Below are positions 391 to 35,479 of a stretch of DNA of 35,479 nucleotides, one piece after another (within the stretch, counting starts at the first letter, position 1; every line of letters starts with the position of its first letter). The position numbers were made by a program, and so were the translations under genes. The notes beneath the pieces were generated by a model. The model ran no database searches and had not been told where the DNA came from. It was given only the letters and a program-made list of their open reading frames with translations. Source of the stretch: Methanococcoides sp. EBM-47. GTDB taxonomy: Archaea > Halobacteriota > Methanosarcinia > Methanosarcinales > Methanosarcinaceae. The DNA is taken from positions 1-35,479 of the forward strand of contig MPPA01000008.1 in assembly GCA_001896725.1 (NCBI GenBank), read 5' to 3'.

Positions 391-1902
391 TTGAACAAGA
401 AGATCACTATTTTCGATACTACACTGCGCGATGGTGAACAGACACCCGGGGTCTCCCTGACGGATGACCAGAAGCTGAAGATCGCAATGCAACTGGACAA
501 GCTAGGGGTAGATATCCTTGAAGCCGGATTTCCTATTTCCTCTGATGGAGACAAGCAGTCTGTAAAAGCTATCGCCAACGAAGACCTTAAACTGGATGTG
601 TGTGGTCTTGCAAGAGTACTGACAAAAGACCTGGACGCATGTCTTGATACAGGTGTGGACATGATACATACATTCGTATCCACGTCAGACATACAAAGGG
701 TCCACACAATAAAGAAGAGCAAAGAAGAAGTTCTTGTAATGGCAGTGGATGCAGTCCAATATATAAAGGACCATGGTGTCAAATGTATGTTCTCAGCCAT
801 GGATGCTACCCGTACAGATATCGATTACCTTACACAGATATATAAAGCAGTAGAGGAAGCAGGGTGTGACATTGTCAATGTGCCCGATACTGTAGGAATA
901 ATGTCCCCTTCCCGCATGTACCGGTTGGTAGATGCGATCAGTAAAGAAGTAATGATTCCCATAGACGTACATTGCCATAATGACTTTGGAATAGCAGTTG
1001 CTAACAGCCTTATGGCAGTTGAGGCTGGAGCAAGCCAGATCCAAGTAACTGTGAATGGTATTGGAGAAAGGGCTGGTAACGCCAATCTTGCTGAAGTGGT
1101 CATGTGCCTGCAGTCGATCTATGGTGCAAGGACGAACATTAACACAGAATACCTGCTTGAAACTTCTAAAATGATCGAGAGATATACAGGCATACACATA
1201 CCTCCTAACATGCCTATCGTTGGTGAGAATGCCTTTGCACATGAATCAGGGATCCATACCCATGGAGTGCTCACCAAGGCAGATACGTTCGAACCTGGTA
1301 TCATGACACCAGAGATGGTAGGACACAAAAGGCGCATCGTGCTGGGTAAACATGCTGGTAAGCACGCTGTACAGAGATCATTGGAAGACGCTGGTATCCA
1401 GACCACTGATGAGCAACTGGACGAGATAGTCAGGAGAATAAAGGCTATCGCTGATAAAGGAAAAAGGATATGTGATGCTGATCTGCACGCTGTTGCAGCA
1501 GATGTACTGGGAAGGAACCTTGGCAGTGAGACCATAAAGCTCAGGGAGCTGTCAGTAATGACAAGTAACCTTACAACACCAACTGCAGTGGTTAGGGCTA
1601 TCATTGGTGATGAGGAAGCAGTTGCATCCAATATTGGTACAGGACCAGTGGATGCGGCTGTCAAGGCAGTCCAGCAAATGATTGCCGGGTACACAAAGGT
1701 CAAGATACGTGATTTCCGCATTGAAGCCATTACTGGAGGCGCCGATGCCCTTGCCGAGGTCACCATAGGTGTGGAGGACGAAAGTGGGCGCACGGTAACA
1801 GCCCATGCTGCAAGCACTGATATCGTGACAGCATCAGTAGACGCACTTGTAACGGCCATAAACATCCTGCTTGACAAGAAAAAACTATGGAACATGCAGT
1901 GA
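391..1902 (+). CDS. leuA: 2-isopropylmalate synthase (LeuA family)
   Basis: This enzyme condenses acetyl-CoA with 2-oxoisovalerate in leucine synthesis. The HMGL-like TIM barrel begins at once with FDTTLRDGEQTPG (residues 8-20; metal ligand D9). The metal-binding HCHNDFG is at 194-200 and GIGERAGN at 223-230, followed by NAFAHESGIHTHG. The C-terminal part, from about 390, is the alpha/beta allosteric domain that binds the feedback inhibitor. The close paralog citramalate synthase (CimA) shares these motifs; AGFPISSDG and HTFVSTSDIQ favour LeuA. The annotated start is TTG with no good ribosome binding site, because the natural N-terminus seems to lie upstream behind a frameshift in a T run (see 339-390). 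A terminator-like hairpin follows the stop. Confidence 0.85.
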   Translation: MNKKITIFDTTLRDGEQTPGVSLTDDQKLKIAMQLDKLGVDILEAGFPISSDGDKQSVKAIANEDLKLDVCGLARVLTKDLDACLDTGVDMIHTFVSTSDIQRVHTIKKSKEEVLVMAVDAVQYIKDHGVKCMFSAMDATRTDIDYLTQIYKAVEEAGCDIVNVPDTVGIMSPSRMYRLVDAISKEVMIPIDVHCHNDFGIAVANSLMAVEAGASQIQVTVNGIGERAGNANLAEVVMCLQSIYGARTNINTEYLLETSKMIERYTGIHIPPNMPIVGENAFAHESGIHTHGVLTKADTFEPGIMTPEMVGHKRRIVLGKHAGKHAVQRSLEDAGIQTTDEQLDEIVRRIKAIADKGKRICDADLHAVAADVLGRNLGSETIKLRELSVMTSNLTTPTAVVRAIIGDEEAVASNIGTGPVDAAVKAVQQMIAGYTKVKIRDFRIEAITGGADALAEVTIGVEDESGRTVTAHAASTDIVTASVDALVTAINILLDKKKLWNMQ

Positions 1903-12722: not shown

Positions 12723-14099
12723 ATGGTAAAAAGAGGAGAAACATCAGGTAAAAAACTCTTGATCATCGGGGGCGGTGCAGTTGGCATGGCGGTATCAACC
12801 GGAGCCACAAGATATACCGGCTATGAGGTAATGGTAATATCCGCTGATAAGCATGCATCTTATAGCCAATGCGGCATACCTTACGTTTTTTCAGGTGATA
12901 TACCTAACTTTGAACAATTAATAGTTAAAGGGCCTGAATTCTTCAAGGAAATGGGTATCAAAGTCAGGCTTGATACTCGAGTAGACTCTATTGACCTTGA
13001 CAACAGTTCGATAAGGATTGGCAACGAAAAGTTAGCCTTTGATAAGCTTGTGATAGCTACAGGAAGCATACCAGCTATACCTAAAATTATAGAAAAGAGT
13101 AGCTCTTTGAAGAATGTGTTCACCCTGCGTACACTATCCGACGGTATACTGATCCGCGAAGCTCTGAACAATGCAAAGGATATTGTTATCATAGGTGCTG
13201 GTTCCATTGGTGCCGAAGTTTCCATAGCCACTGCACGTCAGGGAATAAGAACTTCATTATTGAACAGGAGCAATACGATCCTTTCATCCAGTCTTGATCC
13301 TGATATGGCAGAAGTAGTTATATCATATCTGGAAGAGGAGGGGGTTCAGGTATTGACTGGATACGCTCCTACATCCATCAATGGTGAAGAGAGCGTCATA
13401 TCGGTAATAGTGAATGAAATAGAGATACCTGCTGATGTTGTGTTGATCTCAGTTGGTGTGATCCCTGATGTTTCTATAGCATCAGAGAGCGGAATAGATA
13501 TTGGACCCACTGGAGGAATAGTCACAAATGACAGACTTCAAGTCATGAGAAATGGAAATGTCATTGAAGATGTGTACTCCGGAGGAGAATGCACCCAGAT
13601 ATACAATTTTGTGACAGGTGAACCCATGCTTAGCCATCTGGCAAGCACGGCGCGCAGAATGGCAGGGGTGATAACCAATAATCTGGGAGGTAAGGATACA
13701 AGATTTGGCCCTGTGGCCAATCCTTGGGTAGCAGTGATCGGAAACCTCCAGATAGGTTCAGTAGGGATTACGACCGCAGAAGCTGAAAAACAGGGGATCA
13801 AGGTTGTCAGTGGTATAGCTACAGGTTCTACACGTGCAGAGTATTTCCCTGGGTCCCACAAAATATATATAAAGGTCCTGTTCCATGAAAGATGCCTGGT
13901 CGGTGCTCAGATAATTTCAACAACCGGCGTCAAAGAGCGTATTGATGGTATTTCTCTGGCAATAAAAAAGAAACAAACAATAGATGAACTGCTTGAGATG
14001 GAAACTTGCTACTCTCCTGCTGTTTCCACACTTCAAGACCCCCTTCTTTTTGCTGTCAAAGGTGCATACAAGAAAATGCCAAAAAAAGGTGGACAATGA
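12723..14099 (+). CDS. CoA-disulfide reductase / NADH oxidase-like flavoprotein
   Basis: A 458-residue FAD/NAD(P)-dependent pyridine nucleotide-disulfide oxidoreductase. The FAD Rossmann motif is IIGGGAVG (14-21), the NAD(P) Rossmann motif is IIGAGSIGAE in the middle, and the FAD-contacting YSGGECTQ follows. The single redox cysteine C50 in YSQCGIPY is the signature of the CoA-disulfide reductase, NADH oxidase and persulfide reductase group, which lacks the CxxxxC pair of glutathione reductase. The C-terminal dimerisation domain is complete. A thiol, disulfide or oxygen-defence role in an anaerobe is likely; the substrate is unproven. Its stop overlaps the rtcA start by 4 bases (ATGA). Confidence 0.85.
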   Translation: MVKRGETSGKKLLIIGGGAVGMAVSTGATRYTGYEVMVISADKHASYSQCGIPYVFSGDIPNFEQLIVKGPEFFKEMGIKVRLDTRVDSIDLDNSSIRIGNEKLAFDKLVIATGSIPAIPKIIEKSSSLKNVFTLRTLSDGILIREALNNAKDIVIIGAGSIGAEVSIATARQGIRTSLLNRSNTILSSSLDPDMAEVVISYLEEEGVQVLTGYAPTSINGEESVISVIVNEIEIPADVVLISVGVIPDVSIASESGIDIGPTGGIVTNDRLQVMRNGNVIEDVYSGGECTQIYNFVTGEPMLSHLASTARRMAGVITNNLGGKDTRFGPVANPWVAVIGNLQIGSVGITTAEAEKQGIKVVSGIATGSTRAEYFPGSHKIYIKVLFHERCLVGAQIISTTGVKERIDGISLAIKKKQTIDELLEMETCYSPAVSTLQDPLLFAVKGAYKKMPKKGGQ

Positions 14100-15091
14100 T
14101 AGATATCGATGGGTCCTATGGGGAAGGTGGGGGACAGATACTGAGGACAGCTATTTCTTTGGCAAGCATTGGATCAATAGAAGTGAGAATATTTAACATC
14201 AGATCTCATCGACCCCAGCCGGGACTTAAGGCACAGCATATGAAAGCGATAGAAACTGCTGCAAAGCTCTGTGATGCTGAAGTTTTAGGACTGTATATGG
14301 GTTCTCAGGAGATCATCTATTCTCCAATGGAAATAAAGGGGGCTGCATATAAAGTGGACATTGGAACTGCTGGAAGCATCTCACTGCTGCTTCAGTGTAT
14401 AATGCCTATGGCAGCATTCTCTAAAGGAGATATATCACTTGAGATCACCGGTGGGACCGATGTGAAATGGTCCCCTACTATGGACTATCTCAACAACGTG
14501 ACATGTAATGCACTTAAACAAATGGGATTTAACTATAGAATAGAAGTTCTGAAAAGGGGATACTATCCAGAAGGAGGGGGAAAAGTATGCGCATCCTTTG
14601 AACCTGCAAGGCTGCACGGGTTCGAATATGAAAGAAAGGAAGAGATCATTAAGGGAATATCACACTCATCAAAACTTCCTGAACATATATCACAGCGCCA
14701 GGCCCTGGCAGCTAAAAGAGTGCTGGATAACAGAGGGATAGAATGCGATATAACTGTATGTACTAAAGATGAAGTTTCAACAGGAAGCGGGATCACGTTA
14801 TGGAGTGGATACAATGGTGCCAGTAATCTTGGAAGGAAAGGTATTCCTGCCGAAAAGATTGGAGAGATGGCTGCTAAGCAAATGATACAACAGATCGATT
14901 CCAAAGCCTCGGTAGACCCTTATCTTGCAGATCAGCTAATTACCTATATGGGCCTTGTAGGAAGTGGGTCTTTCACCACTTACATGGTATCACAGCACAC
15001 ACTGACGAATATACATATAACTGAACTGCTTTTGGATATAGAGTTCGAAATTAGAAAAAAGGGAAAACTTGCTGAGATCTCAGTTAAATAA
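14096..15091 (+). CDS. rtcA: RNA 3'-terminal phosphate cyclase
   Basis: A 331-residue RtcA that uses ATP to convert RNA 3'-phosphate ends to 2',3'-cyclic phosphates through an enzyme-AMP intermediate. The N-terminal GSYGEGGGQ (6-14), HRPQPGLKAQH and RGYYPEGGG motifs match. The adenylated histidine is H301 in SQHTLTN near the C-terminus. The start is the ATG at 14096, which overlaps the upstream stop and has GGTGG just before it; the open frame extends further upstream, but that part is the previous gene read in another frame. Its convergent neighbour encodes KptA, another enzyme acting on RNA 2'-phosphates. Confidence 0.93.
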   Translation: MIDIDGSYGEGGGQILRTAISLASIGSIEVRIFNIRSHRPQPGLKAQHMKAIETAAKLCDAEVLGLYMGSQEIIYSPMEIKGAAYKVDIGTAGSISLLLQCIMPMAAFSKGDISLEITGGTDVKWSPTMDYLNNVTCNALKQMGFNYRIEVLKRGYYPEGGGKVCASFEPARLHGFEYERKEEIIKGISHSSKLPEHISQRQALAAKRVLDNRGIECDITVCTKDEVSTGSGITLWSGYNGASNLGRKGIPAEKIGEMAAKQMIQQIDSKASVDPYLADQLITYMGLVGSGSFTTYMVSQHTLTNIHITELLLDIEFEIRKKGKLAEISVK

Positions 15092-15111
15092 GATGAAGGA
15101 AGCTATCTGGA

Positions 15112-15747
15112 TCAGCTACCATTCTCAACTACGCTTAGGTATTCAGCCGGAATGAATCTTGCAAGGGCGATGTCCTCATTGGCGGTAATTACCATTATTC
15201 CTTCGTTCTGTGCAGAATCAGCATCTACCTCAAGTATTACAGGATTATCAGTGTGTACAAGTGCAGCTTCCACAGCTTTATCATAAGAAGTGCTAAGATG
15301 TGCATAGGTTTGCCTGATAGGTGTAATACCGCTTTCCAGCAACATATCAACCTCTTCCTGGCTGACGCCATAATAAAGTAATGGAAGTTCATTTTCGGGA
15401 TAATCTGACTCAAGCTCTACATCTACAGAATGGCCATATTTTGCCCTTATGTGTTTACCATCTATCTCATACCTGTGCTTTCTGTCAGACTTGACAAGAG
15501 CAATGAGCCTTTCCTTGGTGGCCCACCTATAGCGTGTGCTCAGAACATCCAGAAGATGTCCCAGGCTAACCCAGCCATAGATGTCCATTTTAAGACCCAC
15601 ATCTTCAGGGAAATGCCTCAGTGCTCCAGAAACAAATTTCCCCAGGCGCTCTTCGCGGTCATCATCAAGGACGTATCGGCCTTCCACACCGCATGCCGGG
15701 CATGTCTCACCTCGGAAATATCCATGCTCATTGCATTTACGGATCAT
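15112..15747 (-). CDS. kptA: RNA 2'-phosphotransferase KptA/Tpt1
   Basis: A 211-residue KptA that transfers an internal RNA 2'-phosphate to NAD+, releasing nicotinamide and ADP-ribose 1'',2''-cyclic phosphate. The family's Arg-His-Arg-Arg set can be read as R44 and H45 in LRHFPEDVGL, R101 in IRAKYGHS and R145 in PIRQTYAHLS. An N-terminal zinc knuckle (C5, H8, C16, C19) precedes the domain, as in some archaeal members. The usual HGT triplet is YGV here (LLYYGVS). A TATA element (15774-15784, minus strand) is close upstream. Archaea have no known tRNA-splicing 2'-phosphate, so the physiological substrate is open; reversal of RtcA-type or other 2'-phosphate marks is possible. Confidence 0.88.
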   Translation of the reverse strand: MIRKCNEHGYFRGETCPACGVEGRYVLDDDREERLGKFVSGALRHFPEDVGLKMDIYGWVSLGHLLDVLSTRYRWATKERLIALVKSDRKHRYEIDGKHIRAKYGHSVDVELESDYPENELPLLYYGVSQEEVDMLLESGITPIRQTYAHLSTSYDKAVEAALVHTDNPVILEVDADSAQNEGIMVITANEDIALARFIPAEYLSVVENGS

Positions 15748-17183: not shown

Positions 17184-17795
17184 ATGGTTTTGGGTGCACA
17201 ATGGAACCTTGGGACTGACACATCTATCAATAAGGTTCGCAAGGAGATGTCAGTTCGGGAAATAATGACCAGTAGTGTGGTTGTTGCAAATATCAATTCT
17301 AGTGTTCTTGAAATTGCCCAGGAGATGATCAGCCAGAAAGTAGGCAGTGTGATCATCACTGATAATGATGATAATCCTGTGGGAATAATAACAGAGACGG
17401 ACATCATCAGCAAAGTGGTGATCAATAACATGGTGCCAAGCACAGTTATGGCAGGTACGATCATGTCTTCTCCCATCATAGCAACAAAACCATCAACAGG
17501 AGTTATAGAAGCTGCAGAACAGATGACCAGGTGCAACATCCGCAGGCTTGCAGTGAAAGATGGTGATAAGATAGTAGCTATCATCACGGACAGGGATATC
17601 CTTACAATATCACCTAGTCTCAACACTATTCTGGAAAGTCTGATCGAACTGCATCGGGATGAGAATAGCTTTGTGGACGAATCGGGGATAGAAAGAGGGA
17701 TATGCCAAAGATGCGGTGCATATACAGACCTTACCCTGATGAACGGACTTATGCTCTGTGAAGACTGCAAAGAAGAAGAAGGCTATTACGATTAG
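17184..17795 (+). CDS. CBS-pair protein with C-terminal zinc ribbon
   Basis: A 203-residue protein with two CBS motifs (about 22-80 and 90-145), together one Bateman module of the kind that binds adenosine nucleotides or SAM. A C-terminal zinc ribbon has C174-x2-C177 and C192-x2-C195 (CQRCGAY and CEDC). The ribbon suggests contact with a nucleic acid or protein partner. The ATG at 17184 has GGAG 11 bases upstream; an inner ATG at 17247 (MSVREIM) is a second possibility. It is the first of five successive CBS genes, 42 bases before the next. Ligand and target are unknown. Confidence 0.85.
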   Translation: MVLGAQWNLGTDTSINKVRKEMSVREIMTSSVVVANINSSVLEIAQEMISQKVGSVIITDNDDNPVGIITETDIISKVVINNMVPSTVMAGTIMSSPIIATKPSTGVIEAAEQMTRCNIRRLAVKDGDKIVAIITDRDILTISPSLNTILESLIELHRDENSFVDESGIERGICQRCGAYTDLTLMNGLMLCEDCKEEEGYYD

Positions 17796-17837
17796 TCGTG
17801 TATCAATTGACCTGCCCATTCTTAATGGAGGATATCT

Positions 17838-18626
17838 ATGACAGTAGAGAGGATAATGTCAAAGGATCCCTTATATGTAAAAGATAGCGATCTTATAACC
17901 CATGCACGTCAAGTTATGCGTGACCATTTTTTGAGAGGGGTACCTGTAGTGAACGATCACATGAAAGTTGGTGGAATACTTACAGATGGGGATATACTTA
18001 AAGTAAAATCCACCAAGTCCAATGTGACAGTAAAAGGATATGTAAAGGAAGTACCAATGATCACACCTGAAATGGAAATACTGAAAGCTGCACGCTTAAT
18101 GCTTGATGCGAATCAGCATAGAGTTCCTGTGGTATCAGGTGTTGACAGACAGCTAATGGGGATCATAAGTGACGCAGATATACTGGCAGCTGTCAGGCCA
18201 ACAAAAAAGTCTCCTCCATACATTGAAGAGATCATGGTGACAGATGTGATTAGCTGCTATCCGGATGATAGTGTAACCAAGGTCTGGCATCAAATGCTTG
18301 AACATGATTATACTGGAATACCCGTGGTATCACACACCAATGAAACTGTTGGGATGGTGACCAGAAGAGATATCATAAAAGCAGGTTATGCAAGAGTGGG
18401 AGAAGTTGATGGACGGGGTGCAAAAGCCGGTGATGCACCTAAAGTGGAAAAGGTTATGTCCACTCCCATGTACACCTTACCCCCGGAGGCTTCAGTGAAA
18501 GAGGCCATTGATAAGATCCTGCAATATGATATTGGCAGGATAGCCGTAGCCAGCAATAAGAAGTTGTTAGGTGTCGTAAGCAGGTCTGCATTATTGTCTG
18601 CCTGCCTTGTAGGCACAGGTTTCTAA
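17838..18626 (+). CDS. four-CBS-domain protein
   Basis: A 262-residue soluble protein made almost entirely of four CBS motifs, at about 1-55, 68-118, 128-182 and 201-255, forming two Bateman modules. Typical strands are GVPVVND, HRVPVVSG, TGIPVVSH and IGRIAVAS, each followed by a GIxTxxD-type helix start. There is no attached catalytic or channel domain, so it is a stand-alone sensor or regulatory subunit. The start is supported by a strong GGAGG site 7 bases upstream. No member of this array shows which partner it controls. Confidence 0.87.
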   Translation: MTVERIMSKDPLYVKDSDLITHARQVMRDHFLRGVPVVNDHMKVGGILTDGDILKVKSTKSNVTVKGYVKEVPMITPEMEILKAARLMLDANQHRVPVVSGVDRQLMGIISDADILAAVRPTKKSPPYIEEIMVTDVISCYPDDSVTKVWHQMLEHDYTGIPVVSHTNETVGMVTRRDIIKAGYARVGEVDGRGAKAGDAPKVEKVMSTPMYTLPPEASVKEAIDKILQYDIGRIAVASNKKLLGVVSRSALLSACLVGTGF

Positions 18627-18742
18627 ATCTGGCGAAACTATAGTACAAAAAATGAGGACCTTTTCTTTTTGGTCCCTGAAAGTAGTTGAACAGTGAACAT
18701 TTTATTGTACCGGTGGTTGAATTGACAAAAAAGAGAACAGAT

Positions 18743-19711
18743 ATGGTCACAGCAGATAGATCAAGGTTCAAGAACAACATGGAATACAAGAGCAAAAGTA
18801 AAAAGGACCCTAGTATGATTAGCAGTACAAGTACTATGGATGTGTCACCTGTTGAATTCAAGGCAAAAGCTGCAGAAAAGAAAGGTGATATGAGTATTGT
18901 GGCCAAGAAAGACGTGATCACCCTTCCTCCCACAACAACGATCATGGGTGCGATAAGAACGATGACGAATAAAGGTTTTAGAAGAGTGCCGATCGCAGAT
19001 GCTGGGACAAAACGTCTTGAAGGAATAATTACCTCGATGGATGTTGTAAACTTCCTTGGAGGCGGCTCAAAGAACCTACTTGTCAAAAAGTATTATAAAG
19101 GAAACCTTCTGGCAGCTATCAATGCTGATGTGAGCGAGATCATGCAACGTGATGTAGCCTTTCTTGTCTCCAAGGCAAGCATTTTCGATGCAGTGGAAAT
19201 GATGATCCAGAGAAATACAGGAGGATTGCCTGTAGTTAATGAAGATAACAGAGTATGCGGCATATTCACGGAAAGAGATTTTCTGGAGCTGATGGCAGAT
19301 ACCATTGATTATGACTCTGTTAGGAACTACATGAGCACAAAAGTAAAAACCGTTCCTTTCGATGCTACTATAGAGGACGCAGCAAAGATAATGGTCAGTA
19401 AGGGTTTCAGACGATTGCCTATTGCAAAAGATGGTATATTGATAGGTATTGTTACTGCATCTAACATTATGAATTTCTTGGGGAGCGGAAAAGCCTTTGA
19501 AAAGATCATAACAGGTAATTTCCGTGAAGCTTTCAGTGAACCAATAACCTCACTTATAAACAAGGATGTCGTATGGGCCCCACCTGAGATGGACCTGGGA
19601 GATGCTGCAAGATTGATGATAGAGAAAAAAGTAGGTTGTCTGCCAGTAATCGATAATGATGTTCTCTGCGGTATAATTACTGAAAGAGACCTCCTGAAAG
19701 CCGTCTATTAA
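18743..19711 (+). CDS. four-CBS-domain protein with charged N-terminal tail
   Basis: A 322-residue protein. The first 48 residues are charged, rich in Lys, Ser and Met, and probably disordered. Four CBS motifs follow at about 50-106, 126-186, 192-248 and 266-322, with GFRRVPIAD, TGGLPVVNE, GFRRLPIAK and VGCLPVIDN. The first and third motifs are alike (both GFRR and NFLG), as are the second and fourth (both CGIxTERD), which indicates duplication of a CBS pair. The start is uncertain: ATG 18743 has only a weak GAGA site, while a GTG at 18713 and a TTG at 18686 are in frame. A GGACC/GGTCC stem with a T-rich loop lies just upstream. Confidence 0.8.
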   Translation: MVTADRSRFKNNMEYKSKSKKDPSMISSTSTMDVSPVEFKAKAAEKKGDMSIVAKKDVITLPPTTTIMGAIRTMTNKGFRRVPIADAGTKRLEGIITSMDVVNFLGGGSKNLLVKKYYKGNLLAAINADVSEIMQRDVAFLVSKASIFDAVEMMIQRNTGGLPVVNEDNRVCGIFTERDFLELMADTIDYDSVRNYMSTKVKTVPFDATIEDAAKIMVSKGFRRLPIAKDGILIGIVTASNIMNFLGSGKAFEKIITGNFREAFSEPITSLINKDVVWAPPEMDLGDAARLMIEKKVGCLPVIDNDVLCGIITERDLLKAVY

Positions 19712-19760
19712 AAGGCGAAGAACAGCTATCAATTAATATAACGACCATTGGAGGAAGTAA

Positions 19761-20609
19761 ATGAGCGTTTCAGATATAATGAGCTCTCCAGTTTTCGTAG
19801 TGGAACCTGATGAGCCAGTATCACGTGCAAGGAATCTGATGTTGAAACACAGGATCAGTACGGTTGTTGTTGCTGATGGTGATAAAATGCTGGGTATCCT
19901 CTCACAGACTGACCTGAGCAGAAAACTTGCCCAGGCAGAACCTGTCTGGAGAAGGCGCCCCATAGATAAGATCCCAGTAAGCATGGTGATGACAGAGGAC
20001 CCAATAACTATCTATCCAGAAGCTTCGATATCCCAAGCCGGGAATCTCATGTTAGAGAACAACATCAACTACCTAGCGGTGATGAAAAAGGGACTTGTTG
20101 GCATAGTAACAGGTACTGATATCGTCAGATATATCTCCAAGCTTGATGAAGAAAAGTTAGATAAGAAAGTATATGAGATTATGTCTGACGAGCCTGTTCG
20201 TATACACATGCATCATACCATTAACCATGCGATAGAGGAGATGGAGAAAAATAATGTGGATGAAGTCCTGGTTGTTGATGATGCTGAAAAAGTAGTAGGA
20301 TTGATATCCTTTAACAATGTTGCCCTTAACATAGTAGCAAGTTCTGATAAAGAGGTCCCTACAAAGAATATCAAGATGACCAGACGTGCTACATCCGGTG
20401 GACAGAAGGTATATAGGTACATAAAAGAAGTGCCCCTGGTTGCTGAAGATATCATGTCATATATCAGTACTATTGTGAAGTGGGGTGATTCGGCAATTGA
20501 GGCTGCAAAGCTCATTGTAGAGGATGATTCAAGGGTCCTGCCGGTAGAAAAGGATAACGAGATCGTTGGTGTCATCCGGAGAAAGGATCTGATAAGGATA
20601 GCGAAGTGA
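19761..20609 (+). CDS. four-CBS-domain protein
   Basis: A 282-residue protein with four CBS motifs at about 1-56, 71-128, 138-194 and 228-281. It begins directly with MSVSDIMSSPVF, a classical CBS start. A linker of about 30 residues between motifs three and four (rich in Lys, Thr and Arg, ending YIKEVPLVAED) is longer than in the neighbouring proteins. The ATG is supported by GGAGG 7 bases upstream. It is the fourth gene of the array, 49 bases after the third and 36 bases before the fifth. It is presumably cytoplasmic and binds nucleotides; the partner is unknown. Confidence 0.86.
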   Translation: MSVSDIMSSPVFVVEPDEPVSRARNLMLKHRISTVVVADGDKMLGILSQTDLSRKLAQAEPVWRRRPIDKIPVSMVMTEDPITIYPEASISQAGNLMLENNINYLAVMKKGLVGIVTGTDIVRYISKLDEEKLDKKVYEIMSDEPVRIHMHHTINHAIEEMEKNNVDEVLVVDDAEKVVGLISFNNVALNIVASSDKEVPTKNIKMTRRATSGGQKVYRYIKEVPLVAEDIMSYISTIVKWGDSAIEAAKLIVEDDSRVLPVEKDNEIVGVIRRKDLIRIAK

Positions 20610-20645
20610 AGGAACAAAAGCTAATACAACCTGAAGGTGAAAGAC

Positions 20646-21422
20646 ATGGAAGTAAAGGACATAATGACAGAACCACCAACTATCAGTAAATCGGACACTC
20701 TTTCCCATGCGCTTGATATTATGGAAAAGAAAGAAATGCGTCGGGCCCTTGTGAAACAAGGTGATAAGATAGTTGGTATCCTTACTATGAGAAACCTCAC
20801 AAGAGAACTCGGGACCAGAAAGAAGGGAAATATGCCTGCATCCTCGCTTCACGTGGCAACAGCTGTTTCTGATAACTTTGTGAAGGTCTTCCCGGATGTC
20901 AAGGTAAAGGATGCTGTCACACTCATTGATAAGAATCAGGGAGTTATCATTGTCTGCAAGGATGAGAAGGTCGTGGGTTGGGTCACACCTACAGAACTAC
21001 TGAGTACTGACAACTTCAATGGCTTTGCAGGAGAGTTCATGCAAAAAGAAACTGTGATCGCAAGCCCTGGTGACCGCGTGAGCCATATCAGGCGCCTGAT
21101 GCTGGACAAAAATGTAGGAAGGATCCCTATCACAGAAAATGGTAAACTGGTGGGGATTGTCACCGAAAAAGATGTTGTTAAGGCCATGAGGGCTTTCAGG
21201 GATATAGTATCAGGAAATCAGCAGGAAGCCAGGATAAAGAATCTGATCGTTGCAGATATCATGAAGAGGAGTGTAATGACAGTTAATACGAACACCTCTC
21301 TTTCAGATGTGGCAAAGATGATGCTCGCAGAGAACATAGGAGGTCTTCCTGTACTAAATCTTGAAGGAGAGTTCGTAGGATTTATCACCAGAAGGAACCT
21401 GGTACATGCAATGGCACAGTGA
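20646..21422 (+). CDS. four-CBS-domain protein next to RNA ligase
   Basis: A 258-residue protein with four CBS motifs at about 1-55, 66-120, 126-180 and 201-256, opening with [12 protein letters not shown]. The ATG at 20646 is preferred because AAGGTGA lies at the right distance; a GTG at 20637 would overlap that site. The second motif ([16 protein letters not shown]) is divergent. Its stop is 2 bases before the ATG of the RNA ligase gene, or overlaps a GTG start by 4 bases. This is the closest coupling of any CBS gene here to an enzyme gene, which makes the ligase the best candidate for a regulated partner. Confidence 0.86.
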
Positions 21423-21424
21423 AC

Positions 21425-22591
21425 ATGGATAACTATCCACAAACAGAGCTGAACGTTGAGGATGCTGCATCTTTCCTGAAAATCCCTGTTCAGCAGATGA
21501 AGGAATTGATAGAAAGAAAAGTGTTGGTACCTAACTGGAACGAGTACCAACACTTATTCCGTTTTGAACGTAAGTCTATACGTATCGATATTGGAAGTGT
21601 TCTTGTACAAAAGGACGATGGTTTCAATCTTATTCTTGGATTTCCAAAGATCAAAAGAGCAATGCTGCTTGGGCCTGCCATCAAGTTCAATTTCAGTGAT
21701 ATAAAGAAGATAGCAGTAGAAGAGAAAATGAATGGATACAATGTAAGAGTGATCTTACTGGATGGGAAGCTCATAGCACTTACGCGCAAGGGTTATGTAT
21801 GCCCTTATTCTTCAGAGAAGGTTAATGATCTGCTAGACCATAGTTTTTTCGTCGAGAACCCACAACTTGTGGTATATGGAGAAATGGTAGGTCCCGATAA
21901 TCCTTACGTACCTAAGGGAATATATGGTATTGAATCACTGGAGCTCTTTGTTTTTGATATAAGGCAGAAAGACACGGGTGTACCTTTACCACTGTATGAG
22001 CGAAGGAGACTTGCTGAAAAATATGGCTTCAGACAGGTCAGACTTTTCGGAGAGTTCAGTATCCAGGAAGCTCCTTCCATGATCATGAACATCATCCAGG
22101 AAATTGGGAGAAAAGGACATGAAGGAGTGGTGATCAAGGACCCGAATATGGTATTGCAACCAATCAAATACACTGCTTCTCAGAGTAATTGTTCAGATCT
22201 CCAGCACGCCCTGAAAATATATAATGAAAGTGGAAGAGATTTCATATTTTCCAGAATAGTCAGAGAAGGTTTCCAGTCAGTAGAATGGGATGAAAATGAG
22301 GAGGATTTCAGAAAACGTTGTCTTCGGTTAGGTGAAAGTATCCTGAGACCTATGAAAGAGTCCATAGTGCATGTAAGGGAGGGAGGGAGAGTTGCAGAAG
22401 AATTCACTATCAGAGTGAAAGACAGAGCAACCATATCAAAGTTCGAAGAATATATGAGAAGGCTTGGAATGGACATAGTGTTCAGTGAGCCTAAGACCGT
22501 GGGCGATGAATATCTTGTACATATGAAAAAGGTAAGTAAGAGCACCAGTGATAAGACACTGGCCATGTGGGAAGGCCAGCTGTGGTCATGA
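21425..22591 (+). CDS. ATP-dependent RNA ligase, Rnl3 family
   Basis: A 388-residue nucleotidyltransferase of the archaeal Rnl3 (Pab1020-like) family, which seals or circularises RNA. The adenylated lysine is K101 in EEKMNGYNVR (motif I, KxxG-like). Motif III is VVYGEMVG (E153), motif IV is GHEGVVIKDP (E233, K238) and motif V is QPIKYT (K248). The N-terminal 85 residues and the helical C-terminal domain (from about 255) match the family layout. An in-frame GTG at 21419 would overlap the preceding CBS gene by 4 bases; ATG 21425 is taken as start. It sits between a CBS sensor and a GTPase gene. Confidence 0.85.
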   Translation: MDNYPQTELNVEDAASFLKIPVQQMKELIERKVLVPNWNEYQHLFRFERKSIRIDIGSVLVQKDDGFNLILGFPKIKRAMLLGPAIKFNFSDIKKIAVEEKMNGYNVRVILLDGKLIALTRKGYVCPYSSEKVNDLLDHSFFVENPQLVVYGEMVGPDNPYVPKGIYGIESLELFVFDIRQKDTGVPLPLYERRRLAEKYGFRQVRLFGEFSIQEAPSMIMNIIQEIGRKGHEGVVIKDPNMVLQPIKYTASQSNCSDLQHALKIYNESGRDFIFSRIVREGFQSVEWDENEEDFRKRCLRLGESILRPMKESIVHVREGGRVAEEFTIRVKDRATISKFEEYMRRLGMDIVFSEPKTVGDEYLVHMKKVSKSTSDKTLAMWEGQLWS

Positions 22592-22646: not shown

Positions 22647-23681
22647 ATGACAAAGATCACTATAATAGGGAGTCAGCAAAGTGGGAAGACAACGCTTGCT
22701 GCAAAACTGGGAAAGAAAGGTAATGTATCAGACTTCACAATGTATGATTTTGCCAAAGGCGATAAGATAATGACCATCATAGATCCCACTGGATATCCGG
22801 TTTCTGTTAAGCCATTGATATCCTCGCTTAATCTTTCCGATATTGCCGTCCTATGTGTGCCCCCCACTGGCTTGGATGCTTACGCAGGGGAATGCATCAT
22901 CTGCCTGGAGTGTATGGGCTACAGGCATGGTCTTGTACTGCTCACAAAATCTGACACCACTTATCTGCAGGCAATCGATGAATTAAAGACGAAATTACAG
23001 AAGATCACAAAGGACACTGTGATTGAGAATTGGGAGCATATGACAATCTCTACTAAAACCTTTGATGGTATGGAAGAACTCAAGGAAAAGATATTCAGTA
23101 TGGGTGAAATGATCGATGAAGAAAATCGGAAGAAGGCCACCTTACCAACAAGAGTTATAATAGATCAATCTTTCAATGTCACTGGGATCGGATGTGTTGT
23201 GCTTGGTGTTGTGATACAGGGTACTATCAATGTAAAAGACAAAATGATAGCTTATCCCACCAGGAAGCCTTTGGAGATCAGATCGATACAGATGCACGAT
23301 GTAAATGTTAAAACTGCATCCACCGGAGCAAGAGTGGGCCTTGCCCTTAAGGGAATACAATCAAAGGATATAGACAGAGGCCATGTTCTTTCCCTTGAGG
23401 AAATGGTCAGTGATGAACTTAGAATCAAATGTAAGCTCTCACCCTTTTCCAAAGGTTTCAATACTGGGAGCATGCTGCATGTATTCGCTGGGTTGCAATC
23501 GTCTCCAATGAGAGTTACTAGCATAGCAGAAAATGGGAACATGGTGGAAAAAGCTTCTCCTGGGAAAGAATATACCCTTCAGTTGATGGGTACGAAAGAA
23601 ATTTCCTATTCTCAGTCAGAAAGGTTCATACTTACGGATCTGGACGAAAAACAAAGGTTCTTAGGCTTTGGTTCCCTTTGA
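22647..23681 (+). CDS. divergent EF-Tu/SelB-like GTPase
   Basis: A 344-residue relative of translational GTPases. G1 is GSQQSGKTT (8-16), G3 is DPTG (46-49) where elongation factors have DxPGH, and G4 is TKSD (100-103) instead of NKxD. Only about 30 residues separate G1 from G3, too few for a normal switch I. The histidine after DxPG, needed for EF-Tu GTP hydrolysis, is replaced by tyrosine. From about residue 145 a domain II beta barrel (FNVTGIGCVVLGVVIQGTI) and a domain III-like segment follow. It could be a ribosome or tRNA-binding factor without normal GTPase cycling. It is probably the last gene of the CBS-ligase transcript, 55 bases after the ligase; a TATA-like stretch near 22597-22610 could drive it separately. 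Confidence 0.75.
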   Translation: MTKITIIGSQQSGKTTLAAKLGKKGNVSDFTMYDFAKGDKIMTIIDPTGYPVSVKPLISSLNLSDIAVLCVPPTGLDAYAGECIICLECMGYRHGLVLLTKSDTTYLQAIDELKTKLQKITKDTVIENWEHMTISTKTFDGMEELKEKIFSMGEMIDEENRKKATLPTRVIIDQSFNVTGIGCVVLGVVIQGTINVKDKMIAYPTRKPLEIRSIQMHDVNVKTASTGARVGLALKGIQSKDIDRGHVLSLEEMVSDELRIKCKLSPFSKGFNTGSMLHVFAGLQSSPMRVTSIAENGNMVEKASPGKEYTLQLMGTKEISYSQSERFILTDLDEKQRFLGFGSL

Positions 23682-23687
23682 ACACGA

Positions 23688-24191
23688 TCATTTTTTAGGA
23701 GAAAGGTGCTTGATACCATCCAGCATGGACGGTCTTTCTACTGCTTTTGTAAGAGATGTGTTCTCAGGAAGATCTGTAAACTGGGGTCTTTCTAAAGGAG
23801 CCGGAGAACTTTCCTGAAAAGTATTTCTTTTTCTAAAGGAATTGTCAATACCTGAGATATTATAAGATTGCGGGAACAGTACGGATGCAGACTCTGATAA
23901 TGTTTTATCCTTATCTGTTGCTCTTCTGAAGAGCCCTGCTTTCATGTCACGTTCTCTAGTTCTGGCACCCTCTGATCGCCCAGTTTCATAGTATTCCCTG
24001 ACAGGCTGTCCCAGATCACCTTGGGATGCAAACTCGTAAAGTGAGTTGAACCTTTCCTTTACCCATCCGATCTCTGAATGTTTATGATAACCCACCTCAA
24101 AGCCCAGTTCATAAGAGCTCTTTATGAGTGTCTGTTTCTGAGGTTCGGTGAGCTTTCTTTTATTTTCCTTTTTCTTAAAGATCTTGACCAT
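23688..24191 (-). CDS. hypothetical protein paired with KaiC-like ATPase
   Basis: A 167-residue protein that I do not recognise. The N-terminus is strongly basic (MVKIFKKKENKRKLTEPQK). Residues 20-80 look helical, with KSSYELGFEVGYHKHSEIGW and a YEFASQGDLG segment. The last 80 residues are polar and probably disordered (rich in Ser, Pro, Arg). There is no signal peptide or membrane segment. Its ATG is 12 bases after the stop of the KaiC-like gene, so the two form an operon and may form a complex. It ends 6 bases from the convergent GTPase gene. Confidence 0.65.
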   Translation of the reverse strand: MVKIFKKKENKRKLTEPQKQTLIKSSYELGFEVGYHKHSEIGWVKERFNSLYEFASQGDLGQPVREYYETGRSEGARTRERDMKAGLFRRATDKDKTLSESASVLFPQSYNISGIDNSFRKRNTFQESSPAPLERPQFTDLPENTSLTKAVERPSMLDGIKHLSPKK

Positions 24192-24203
24192 TGGACCAAT
24201 CCA

Positions 24204-24947
24204 TTATTCCAGATATCCTTCGATCTTCAGGCCCCTATCAGTGAACTGCACTGTGCGCATGTTACAATCATGCTTTGTTCCTCTCATTTTGATAATTTGT
24301 ATGGCTCTGGTCATATTCTTATCGTAGAGAAAATTATGCATGAAGATGACGCCATGTGCTGCAAACTGCTCTGTTGAGTAGGCTGTCGGATCGGTCAGCT
24401 CTCCTATCAATATTGTGGTGCAGCCAAGCTTTTTAAGATTACGTATGAACCTTGTCATTTCCTTTTCCTGTAAAGAAAGGTCCTTTGTTGTAAAACGGAT
24501 GGCTGATACGGAATCCAATACAAGTCTTTTTACATCATATTCAGCTACATAAGCAGCAACTTCCTTAAATACCATTGCAGGTGAAGGAGCTTCACTTTCA
24601 AGAGAAGTTCTGCTGACCTGATAATGAGATAGTTCTGACCCATTGAATTCGTCCATATACCCATATTCCATTCTTGGACCCAGGTCCGCGAACAGGAGTT
24701 TCCTCATTTTTATAAGTGGGATGACGTTCATTGAATAATTGGACATATCATCAATGATGTTCTGAGGACTTTCCAGTAAGGTCACATACAGACCTACATC
24801 GCCAAGCGCAGCACCGTGAGCAAGGAATTGTACACCAAATGTAGTTTTACCACTACCTGGGGGGCCACTTACAAGATAAACCCTTTCAGAGAGCAAACCT
24901 CCCTGCATAAGTTCATCAAAACCTTCGATTCCAGTTTGTATTCTCAT
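24204..24947 (-). CDS. KaiC/RadA-superfamily ATPase, single domain
   Basis: A 247-residue RecA-fold ATPase of the KaiC/GvpD/Rad55-like group. It opens with RIQTGIEGFDELMQGGLL, typical of KaiC domains. Walker A is GPPGSGKTT (28-36) and Walker B is RLVLDSVSA (D145). The catalytic glutamate position is E59 in LYVTLLESPQ, where KaiC usually has two adjacent glutamates. A single RecA domain is present without a helix-hairpin-helix or second KaiC domain. Members of this group in archaea act in signalling and motility, but this one has no such neighbours. It is transcribed with the unknown gene downstream and divergently from the SpoIIM-family gene. Confidence 0.85.
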   Translation of the reverse strand: MRIQTGIEGFDELMQGGLLSERVYLVSGPPGSGKTTFGVQFLAHGAALGDVGLYVTLLESPQNIIDDMSNYSMNVIPLIKMRKLLFADLGPRMEYGYMDEFNGSELSHYQVSRTSLESEAPSPAMVFKEVAAYVAEYDVKRLVLDSVSAIRFTTKDLSLQEKEMTRFIRNLKKLGCTTILIGELTDPTAYSTEQFAAHGVIFMHNFLYDKNMTRAIQIIKMRGTKHDCNMRTVQFTDRGLKIEGYLE

Positions 24948-33355: not shown

Positions 33356-34129
33356 TCAGAGATCTCGAAGATATGCAACACACTCTTTACCTTCTTCTAA
33401 GCTTGCCATTTCAGTTACAAACCTTCCATTATAGCCCTTAAGACTTTCCATGACCTTTTTCCACTGCACATTTCCCTGCCCCAGAGGCAGGTGTTCATCC
33501 CATTGTCCGTGATTGTCGTGGATATGCACGTGCAGGATCTGGTCCTTGCACTTTTCCAAGAACTCATCCACAACCCCTACAGTATTAGCATGGCCTACAT
33601 CCAAGGTCATACCTACATTGTCTCTGTTCACTTCCTCAATGGTCCTGAGCATCTCATCAGGATATTTACCGAAAATCTTGGCCATTTCAGGCATGTTCTC
33701 CACAGCTATCGTTATGCTGCACTCTGCAGCAATATCACATACGCTCTGTATGGACCCTATATGGACACGCCATGCCTTTTCAGGCATCTGTGAACCATAT
33801 GGGGATAGGTAACCTGGATGTACCACAGCCAAGTCCACGATATCACTTCCAAGTTCAAGGCAGTGGTACATTTGCCTTAGTACCTCATTACGTATCCCGT
33901 TATTAAGGCCTGCCAGGTTCATATCAGAAAAAGGTAGATGCATTGTGATCTTCAGATCAGTGGTGTCACGGATCTCCAGCACCTTGCCCAGGTTGCCGTT
34001 ATGCAGGGTATGTGAACCTTCCTGCACGATCTCCCAGCCTGTATATCCCAGGTCTTCAAGCTGATATACCCAGGCAAAAGAATCACCGGTATCTACCCTG
34101 GATGAAAAGCTCAGATTTCTCAGTTTCAT
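33356..34129 (-). CDS. sugar phosphate isomerase/endonuclease IV-like TIM barrel
   Basis: A 257-residue protein of the xylose isomerase-like TIM-barrel superfamily, which includes AP endonuclease 2 and sugar epimerases. Conserved metal-site elements include VVHPG, VENMPEM, TLDVGHAN, HVHIHDNHG and a C-terminal FVTEMASLEEG. The length is typical. It cannot be assigned to DNA repair or to sugar metabolism on sequence alone. Its ATG overlaps the UPF0201 stop by 4 bases, and it is the last gene of a three-gene operon with an RNA-binding-like protein and a nucleotide kinase. Confidence 0.82.
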   Translation of the reverse strand: MKLRNLSFSSRVDTGDSFAWVYQLEDLGYTGWEIVQEGSHTLHNGNLGKVLEIRDTTDLKITMHLPFSDMNLAGLNNGIRNEVLRQMYHCLELGSDIVDLAVVHPGYLSPYGSQMPEKAWRVHIGSIQSVCDIAAECSITIAVENMPEMAKIFGKYPDEMLRTIEEVNRDNVGMTLDVGHANTVGVVDEFLEKCKDQILHVHIHDNHGQWDEHLPLGQGNVQWKKVMESLKGYNGRFVTEMASLEEGKECVAYLRDL

Positions 34130-34584
34130 GTGCTTTCCACGTCCTCTATATCGGGTTCAAAAAGTATCCTGCCCTTTTCAGTGGGAGGAGCAAGCCATTC
34201 CATCAGCCTCTGTAGTTCAAAAGATGAATCTGCACTTATTGTTACATGCAATGAACCCAGTGATTCTTCGTCGGCCGGGAAGTTAAGACACCCCACAAAG
34301 GCCACGAATTTGCTGATCCTGAAAGATATGGAATCCGCATTTTTGCTCATACCCACCTCAAACTGGGTACGTGCAGTGTCTATGATTTCCTTCTCCCTTA
34401 AAAGATGATGAAAATGACCGAGTCCTTCAAGGCCAGTCGTTCCTTCAACCAATCCCCATAATCCAATATCATCAGTCTTATTGTAAGTTAGGTCCGCCAA
34501 AGGAAAAATCCTTTTGACCGCTGTCCTGACATTTGCCTCGGTTTCAGTAGGGTTAACTCTGGCCGAAATTTTTACCGTTATCAT
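34126..34584 (-). CDS. UPF0201 family RNA-binding-like protein
   Basis: A 152-residue archaeal protein of the UPF0201/COG1325 type, associated by genome context with RNA processing. The N-terminal half has the family opening VKISARVNPTETEANVRTAVKRIF; the second half includes ISFRISKFVAFVGCLNF and a segment resembling a ribosomal-protein-like fold. The start overlaps the UPF0200 kinase stop by 4 bases, and the stop overlaps the TIM-barrel gene start by 4 bases, so the three proteins are translationally coupled. The molecular function is not established. Confidence 0.8.
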   Translation of the reverse strand: MITVKISARVNPTETEANVRTAVKRIFPLADLTYNKTDDIGLWGLVEGTTGLEGLGHFHHLLREKEIIDTARTQFEVGMSKNADSISFRISKFVAFVGCLNFPADEESLGSLHVTISADSSFELQRLMEWLAPPTEKGRILFEPDIEDVEST

Positions 34585-35123
34585 GCCTGACCCGCCATAT
34601 CTAGCACTTTTTTTCTGAACTCATCAAGTGTTCCTGCATTCATAATAGCAATATCTGCAGCAGCTATTGCTTCACCCATACCCCAGCCAAGCTCACGGTC
34701 ATCCCTCACACGCAGGGCATCGATATCGCTCATATCATCACTTCTTTTTCTGGCCTGGACCCTTGCGAACCTCGTATCAAGTGGAGCTTCTATGGCAACT
34801 AAAGTAAAATCAGAACCAAATATCTTCTTGAAGCAATTGACCTCTGCAAGGCTACGCACGCCATCTACAACGAGAAGGTCTGAATCAGCTGCTTGTATTT
34901 TGGATATACAGCGTTTGGCCACAGCGTCTTTACCTTCTTTGTTACGCAGGTCAGTTCCTACACCACCTACATTAGTATCCGTGGGTTCAAGTCCTCTACG
35001 CACAACCTCTTCACGTATCGCATCACCCATATTAACGACCTTGATACCGGATTCTCCCAGGATCGATGCAGCCAGTGATTTGCCTGAAGCTGGCATCCCT
35101 ACAAAAGCTAATATCTTTGTCAT
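34581..35123 (-). CDS. UPF0200 family nucleotide kinase
   Basis: A 180-residue P-loop kinase resembling dephospho-CoA kinase and adenylate kinase. The P-loop GMPASGKS occupies residues 9-16. DGVRSLAEV is the LID-side Walker B-like segment, and ARVQARKRSDDMSD is an arginine-rich lid. The true start is ATG 35123, where the family begins (MTKILAFVGM); the frame is open 25 codons further upstream but lacks a binding site. The substrate is unknown for this archaeal family. It is the first gene of the operon with UPF0201 and the TIM-barrel protein. Confidence 0.82.
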   Translation of the reverse strand: MTKILAFVGMPASGKSLAASILGESGIKVVNMGDAIREEVVRRGLEPTDTNVGGVGTDLRNKEGKDAVAKRCISKIQAADSDLLVVDGVRSLAEVNCFKKIFGSDFTLVAIEAPLDTRFARVQARKRSDDMSDIDALRVRDDRELGWGMGEAIAAADIAIMNAGTLDEFRKKVLDMAGQA

Positions 35124-35137
35124 ACCCAACCTGATGT

Positions 35138-35147
35138 TATTTATGGA
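35138..35147 (-). promoter_or_regulatory. TATA box for the UPF0200 operon
   Basis: Read on the minus strand, CCATAAATAA lies about 15-25 bases before the ATG, so the transcript would be leaderless. A second TATA-like TTATTTATAA at about 35183-35193 could give a longer leader. Confidence 0.35.
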
Positions 35148-35305
35148 CCTTTGAATAATGTGATTCACACAGTCAGTGATGTTATAAATAATATACATTT
35201 CGAATAAAATTACCTTTGGGAACTAACCTACATACATGTGCAATAACCTATATTATATATTGATATGTAGGCTCTGTAGAAAACCTACTTTTAATTTTAT
35301 TTTGA

Positions 35306-35479
35306 CCTATTAATTTAAAAAGGATAAATCCCCTGAGTATTCTCTGCTACCAAAAACACATAGGGGATGATTGTGCTTTCTCTAATAAGTACTTAAAGTT
35401 TGTTGATACAGCTCTAGCTGTATCAGGAAAATCACACCTACCAATCTATAGTTGCAAATATTCCAAAAGAACATATACA
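35306..35479 (+). CDS. transposase N-terminus, partial
   Basis: The frame is open from 35306, after a TGA at 35303, to the window edge. It reads INPLSILCYQKHIGDDCAF and then NKYLKFVDTALAVSGKSH, LPIYSCKYSKRTYT. I recognise this as the opening of archaeal IS transposases (the YSCKYSKRTYT segment is characteristic) from memory of Methanosarcina elements. No ATG lies in frame; the expected start near INP is an ATA, and a CTG is at 35333. The copy may use a rare start, or its start codon may be mutated. Catalytic residues lie outside the window. Confidence 0.55.
35404..35425. repeat. 9-bp hairpin inside the transposase reading frame
   Basis: TGATACAGC (35404-35412) and GCTGTATCA (35417-35425) pair perfectly around TCTA. 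The arms encode part of VDTALAVSG, so the stem lies within the coding region near the transposase start. It could limit translation of read-through transcripts, as described for several IS elements. Confidence 0.45.

Follow-up and report, generated by a model that had tools for sequence, protein, structure and literature searches.

The window, by which we mean the whole stretch of 35,479 nucleotides from Methanococcoides sp. EBM-47 analyzed here, carries at positions 22647–23681 of the forward strand an ORF of 344 amino acids with an ATG start, which is the gene for aSelBL (aEF-X, also called "EF-Pyl"), a SelB paralogue that lacks both the SECIS-recognition domain and the greater part of switch I. 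A first-pass annotation had described its product as a translational GTPase-like protein with an eroded G domain, and the individual sequence features on which that description was based were recovered in our alignments. The P-loop is indeed kept as GSQQSGKT (22668–22691, residues 8–15), with the GxxxxGKT pattern and the canonical Lys14, and the switch I region is very short (GKKGNVSDFTMY, 22710–22745, residues 22–33), with an Asp29 that is invariant in all the 78 sequences compared: 65 distinct "conservative" ones of more than 330 amino acids plus 13 divergent ones from the family labeled f5. The G3 motif reads DPTGY in place of DxPGH (22782–22796, residues 46–50), so that the catalytic His of EF-Tu, whose lack had also been noticed, is replaced by Tyr50, which residue is aligned with the His of DAPGH in the M. 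maripaludis SelB and of DVPGH in the A. aeolicus SelB. The G4 motif is TKSD instead of NKxD (22944–22955, residues 100–103); since the M. maripaludis SelB (4AC9) carries TKSD too—that of A. aeolicus has TKMD—this motif need not be a sign of decay.

The elongation-factor barrels were likewise confirmed. Beta-barrel domain II, with approximate borders at residues 166–252 (23142–23402), was recognized by Pfam as GTP_EFTU_D2 (residues 183–248, E 5.9e-12) and in the structural model, and contains the aminoacyl pocket, of which Asp173-Gln174 (23163–23168), with Gln for His, and the retained Arg229 (23331–23333; 78 of 78 sequences) are part. By a hand-mapped numbering, Asp173-Gln174 corresponds to Asp191-His192 of the M. 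maripaludis SelB and to Asp178-His179 of the M. mazei protein MM1309, while Arg229 is the SelB Arg247 and the MM1309 Arg234. Beta-barrel domain III (approximately residues 253–344, 23403–23678, from the model) is the point at which both the ORF and the model stop, the C-terminal SECIS-recognition domain being absent. The ligand-contact residues named for MM1309 that are kept here are D46, D103, T136, K55, S28, R229, and R244, the last of which is the Arg249 of MM1309.

Profile searches of the ORF placed the protein near SelB: the top NCBIfam model was selB, though below its cut-off (134.3 against 242.25 bits), and the EF-1 alpha models scored lower still, at 86.6 and 58.9 bits (the cut-off of the latter model being 540.1), while the Pfam G-domain match was marginally below the cut-off (26.3 against 26.5 bits). 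The best match among solved structures was MM1309 (3WNB, 3WNC, and 3WND, along with 2ELF as cited in the accessible text of PMC3037878), with a phmmer E-value of 1.5e-109 over residues 1–342, the second family being SelB with 8.6e-21. The first-pass annotation had proposed a structure prediction against EF1A and SelB and a phylogeny, and both placed the protein apart from those factors. An AlphaFold model built with 57 family sequences reached a pLDDT of 92.4 and a pTM of 0.90 (7 close homologues alone gave a pLDDT of 37.8), displayed the arrangement of a G domain followed by domains II and III, and was aligned to 3WNB across residues 1–344, with a Foldseek E-value of 6.8e-48 and a TMq of 0.97, and with a VIA-align Z of 49.8 at 1.3 Å over 344 residues and 49% identity, the next VIA-align rows being EF1A-type proteins and SelB at a Z of 36–36.5. 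A maximum-likelihood tree of 64 rows united all 58 aSelBL rows, MM1309 included, in a single clade (100/96), outside which fell the same-genome EF1A and two SelB rows; both of the latter are partial and have long branches for which long-branch joins were warned, so that we did not rely on the order of the SelB rows. The aSelBL membership thus follows from the E-value for 3WNB against that for SelB, from the Z of 49.8 against 36.5 for the next entry, and from the clade at 100/96. The host resembles a Methanomethylovorans-type methanogen, its closest named relative being Methanomethylovorans sp. PtaU1.Bin093, at 87% identity.

The comparison with the known systems can be made specific. MM1309 is a full-length orthologue of the same fold and similar length, with a Tyr where the catalytic His would stand and the same G4 Asp; the window's protein differs from it in having Lys14, Gln174, and TKSD where MM1309 has Arg14, His179, and TRSD. 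The archaeal SelB, represented by that of M. maripaludis, is the closest canonical family by sequence and shares TKSD, the pocket Asp and Arg, and the three-domain fold; but its identity to our protein is 21–25%, and it possesses a full switch I, an extension at the C-terminus, and, within DAPGH, the catalytic His, none of which is present here. A true SelB is moreover not indicated by the host SelD, whose best match of 97.6 bits was below the cut-off of 125. With EF1A and EF-Tu the protein has in common the G domain and two beta barrels (Z of 35–36.5 for the top rows), but the identity is approximately 20%, the NKxD and the G3 catalytic His are absent, and the genome's own EF1A is another protein, placed in a different clade. 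That the protein belongs to a distinct archaeal family, as had been surmised, therefore stands with respect to SelB and EF1A; that family is, however, not new, having been named in 2011.

The odd GTPase in fact belongs to a family that had been described before, and for which both a solved structure and a ligand are in print. PMC3037878 named the family aSelBL and gave much the same reading of the G domain as did the first-pass annotation: the accessible text lists a deletion of 15 amino acids with respect to aSelB, an unconserved catalytic His that is universal in other translational GTPases, a missing C-terminal domain, and a SelB-like pocket whose His is almost universal except in the longest branches, along with conserved 16S rRNA contact patches; the deletion in switch I, of some 15 residues against SelB, is seen as the short segment in our alignment. 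For MM1309, PMC4329189—from which the name aEF-X stems and whose list of genera with the gene includes "Methanomethyloborans"—gives a Kd of 0.43 µM for GTP and 26.2 µM for GDP, notes, without showing the data, that no GTPase activity was detected when ribosomes were absent, and reports an increase in the half-life of Cys-tRNACys from approximately 80 to 300 min. The tRNA tested was Cys-tRNACys, and neither a panel of other aminoacyl-tRNAs nor a trial of the ribosome as an activator appears in the accessible portions of that paper, whose authors consider that the 20 canonical amino acids might fit the pocket, find pyrrolysine too large for it, and connect both Arg14 and Tyr50 with the missing GTPase. 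The function of aSelBL was called unknown in PMC4342817, and among the open-licence papers in PMC we found no later work on that function beyond these three.

The word "eroded" could not be maintained for the G domain. Among five Methanomethylovorans-type sequences, the window's included (10 pairs), the dN/dS was 0.07–0.11 over the full length, 0–0.04 over residues 1–40 in all 10 pairs, and 0.07–0.29 in domain III, as estimated by the simple Nei–Gojobori method with some dS values near saturation. D29, Y50, T100, and D103 are invariant in the 65 conservative sequences and D46 is present in 64 of them, while Tyr50 occurs in 77 of the 78 (all 65 conservative ones and 12 of the 13 divergent ones), the remaining one having Phe; Asp173, Arg229, and Arg244 are found in all 78. 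A result on the opposing side is that, over the 65 sequences, the G domain was less conserved than domain II, though more so than domain III: the mean entropy was 1.11 bits in the G domain, 0.83 in domain II, and 1.46 in domain III, and the columns with at least 95% identity numbered 36 of 165, 34 of 87, and 12 of 90, respectively. The observation is no product of chance, because the orthologue is matched at E 1.5e-109, the features recur in the 65 sequences, and the dN/dS is that low; and the alignments indicate that purifying selection acts on the G domain, whose odd features are shared and conserved across the family and are not those of decay.

The gene is widespread in the class. At E ≤ 1e-20, aSelBL was matched in 104 of the 119 genomes: the host's family contributed 58 of its 59 genomes, f2 and f3 all 7, f5 39 of 50, and f4 (1 genome) and f6 (2 genomes) none, these family counts being made by hand and several of the f5 genomes being incomplete. 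An apparent loss in a genome of the genus labeled g7 (G063) was set aside as a probable assembly gap, the RNA ligase there lying at the very end of a contig of 3,665 bases, just before the place expected for aSelBL. The aSelBLs of Argoarchaeum and ANME-2 branch inside a clade of rows from the host's family (31 rows, 99/96) and not with f2 and f3, for which placement transfer is possible; beside those two genes, no match to the window neighbor genes searched was found.

As to the source of the published ligand, SepRS was over the cut-off in 114 of the 119 genomes and CysRS in 65, the latter in 48 of the 59 genomes of the host's family, with the host among the 11 without it. Because the host SepRS (748.9 bits) and SepCysS (589 bits) are both over the cut-off and the best CysRS match is short and below it, the host Cys-tRNACys is probably produced mainly by SepRS/SepCysS. 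The CysRS-like protein in question, which narrowly misses the cut-off, has 416 amino acids and lies at 539–1789 (minus strand) of the locus L084; one of 411 amino acids, which misses it narrowly too, is encoded at 541–1776 (plus strand) of L085 in a genome of the same genus. They match MshC with 182 and 178 bits (cut-off 485.1), and the CysRS match ends near position 396 of the 466 of the model. We rejected a broken host CysRS, since the TGA reported within the match is the stop codon of the intact ORF. The host aSelBL (contig C40) lies on a contig separate from those of SepRS (C29), SepCysS (C25), and the CysRS-like protein (C44), so that the genomic context provides no link to cysteine.

Immediately upstream, as had been noted, an RNA ligase gene precedes that of aSelBL: an archaeal Pab1020-type ligase is encoded on the same strand at 21419–22591, 55 bases away (TIGR01209, 379.6 bits against a cut-off of 136.9; Pfam Lig_C, "Ligase Pab1020 C-terminal region"). 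Its ORF overlaps by 4 bases a four-CBS protein at 20637–21422 (plus strand), which is the last of five consecutive, head-to-tail CBS genes (Pfam) spanning 17184–21422, with 2 or 4 CBS stretches each, the others starting at 17184, 17838, 18686, and 19761; many Methanosarcinaceae loci have relatives of several of these genes, with the order unchanged. Downstream, on the minus strand (23688–24947), Pfam and NCBIfam searches gave no match for a 167-amino-acid protein, after which comes a KaiC-like ATPase. Farther upstream, at 14006–15747 and some 6–7 kb from the ligase, an RtcA-type RNA 3'-phosphate cyclase and a Tpt1/KptA RNA 2'-phosphotransferase are convergently encoded, so that the region holds three RNA end-processing genes. 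An ATP-dependent DNA ligase upstream of aSelBL, often after a CBS protein, was described for the Methanosarcinales in PMC3037878. All 57 of the Methanosarcinaceae loci have the RNA ligase ahead of aSelBL and on its strand, a number that includes the window's own copy and two loci that are apparently one contig counted twice (L005 and L032); the spacing by match ends was 38–106 bases in 44 of them and larger in 13. The CBS gene next to the ligase recurs in 56 of the 57. The KaiC-like gene recurs in 41, and the 167-amino-acid gene in 39, of the 45 Methanosarcinaceae loci outside the groups g7 and g8, and both in none of the 12 loci within those groups, the flanks of some of the loci counted being short; SpoIIM and methionine synthase-like genes also belong to the shared block. 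In the genome G003 (L044) the ligase is matched piecewise, over model positions 5–183 and 165–373, which overlap but are read in different frames, and is thus probably frameshifted or misread.

In relatives the block is situated close to a replication origin: on several long contigs some 5–19 kb separate aSelBL from one of the ends, and at five such ends there is an Orc1/Cdc6 ORF, confirmed in L064 by a profile model and recognized in L062, L087, L090, and L091 by likeness. The window's contig itself ends at 35479, and relatives of its AAA, RNA-binding, and AP-endonuclease-like genes (33356–35198) lie, in L064, in the stretch from Orc1 to aSelBL and, in most g7 and g8 loci, close to aSelBL, those of the AP-endonuclease-like gene also in three f2 loci (L055, L057, and L058). 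Other window neighbors recur near Orc1/Cdc6 in g7 and g8 as well; the neighborhood of aSelBL has the look of origin-proximal regional synteny no less than that of a dedicated operon.

We consider, with a probability of roughly 0.6, that this aSelBL, bound to GTP and impaired in its hydrolysis, binds and protects Cys-tRNACys. By this mechanism the protein would hold GTP without the canonical hydrolysis cycle, would use the SelB-type pocket of its domain II to bind Cys-tRNACys, and would shield the ester bond of the cysteinyl group, perhaps along with its thiol, until EF1A or the ribosome received the released tRNA. The reading combines the family membership, the predicted fold, the retained nucleotide, pocket, and 5'-phosphate residues, and the purifying selection established here with the GTP binding, the lack of GTPase without ribosomes, and the Cys-tRNACys protection published, in the accessible text, for the M. 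mazei orthologue only; by analogy with that orthologue, we infer that the MM1309 biochemistry would extend to the window's protein, that the latter would act as a holder rather than as a delivery factor, and that release would proceed in the way outlined. The non-hydrolyzing tRNA binder suggested by the first-pass annotation would find its support along the same route. The Lys14 and the Gln174 of the window's protein nevertheless count against this reading, the Arg14 of MM1309 being one of the two substitutions tied to the missing GTPase, and the Gln in place of the pocket His being able to alter specificity.

That same Lys14 would suit an alternative elongation factor that brings Cys-tRNACys, or several aminoacyl-tRNAs, to the A site, with a hydrolysis that does not depend on His or a release that dispenses with hydrolysis, which is one of the two options given in PMC4329189 and agrees with the full EF-Tu-like three-domain fold of the model and with the 16S rRNA contact patches reported as conserved in PMC3037878; but with most of switch I gone, with Tyr fixed in 65 of 65 sequences where, according to PMC3037878, other translational GTPases have a universal His, and with the GTPase of MM1309 unseen without ribosomes in PMC4329189, we regard such a delivery role as possible but rather unlikely. 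If the same losses of the catalytic His and of most of switch I were instead those of a decaying SelB remnant without a selected nucleotide function, the deletion of the P-loop core in 13 of 13 f5 sequences and the greater variability of the G domain compared with domain II would be accounted for; yet the dN/dS of 0–0.04 at residues 1–40, the Tyr50 and D103 fixed in the 65 conservative sequences, and the submicromolar GTP affinity of MM1309 (PMC4329189) make simple decay highly improbable and contradict it: the nucleotide site may be decaying in the f5 proteins, but not in that of the window.

The pyrrolysine-linked function that the name EF-Pyl implies is contradicted as well, and has hardly any probability left. 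The host does have a PylS over the cut-off (375.7 bits), as do 58 of the 59 genomes of its family, but PylS reaches the cut-off in 60 of the 119 genomes (2 of 2 in f6) as against 104 with aSelBL, and aSelBL occurs without a PylS over the cut-off in a genome of the same genus (G081), throughout f2 and f3 (7 of 7), and in 39 of the 50 f5 genomes, by which the two are dissociated; G002 and G005 (89% and 59% complete), conversely, have PylS with no aSelBL match at E ≤ 1e-20, G002 yielding at E ≤ 0.01 an EF1A-like match only, and the MM1309 pocket is too small for pyrrolysine according to PMC4329189. A partnership with the upstream ligase in tRNA or RNA repair or circularization, outside translation, would explain the constant gene order in the Methanosarcinaceae and the company of the RtcA and Tpt1/KptA genes; the Pab1020 ligase performs ligation and circularization in vitro, with no cellular role seen in the accessible text of PMC3514331. 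Outside the family, however, the two genes are apart—a match to the window's ligase lay beside aSelBL at none of the 9 loci from f2, f3, and ANME/Argoarchaeum and at one of the 13 from f5, where it is encoded on the other strand—even though 114 of the 119 genomes have a ligase over the cut-off, and the block holds genes without any evident tie, such as those for the CBS, KaiC-like, SpoIIM, and methionine synthase-like proteins, so that we deem this partnership improbable.

The variation at residues 14 and 174 deserves consideration. Position 14 is Lys in 36 and Arg in 29 of the 65 conservative sequences, and position 174 is Gln in 45, that of the window included, and His in 20 (as well as in 13 of 13 f5 sequences), Lys14 accompanying Gln174 in 36 of the 45 instances. 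Of the SelB pocket triad Asp191, His192, and Arg247, which is a reported trait of aSelBL and does not define the family, the Asp and the Arg are kept here and the His is changed to Gln, and in our alignments the near-universal pocket His claimed in the accessible text of PMC3037878 does not hold for the Gln174 genera; neither the Lys14 nor the Gln174 of this lineage was found described in the accessible portions of PMC3037878 and PMC4329189. On a tree for which the columns 14, 28, and 174 were set to be left out, residue 174 required 2 changes and residues 14 and 28 required 8 and 6—the count for residue 14 including the letters aligned there in the f5 rows without a P-loop—and the joint pattern of the three may mostly reflect shared descent. 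Compared by eye, the Gln-type genera include genomes both with and without a CysRS over the cut-off. The Gln174 in place of the pocket His could signify a change of specificity, and a doubtful extension of that idea would be that the Methanomethylovorans-type and related aSelBLs with Gln174, mostly with Lys14 too, form a sub-lineage with a pocket shifted from the Asp-His of SelB, holding another or an incompletely processed aminoacyl-tRNA such as Sep-tRNACys, and perhaps with GTP turnover kept or regained. The family being already known, it is in this lineage that the remaining interest lies, since it provides natural variants both at a P-loop residue linked to the missing GTPase and at a pocket residue that would favor Sec or Cys.
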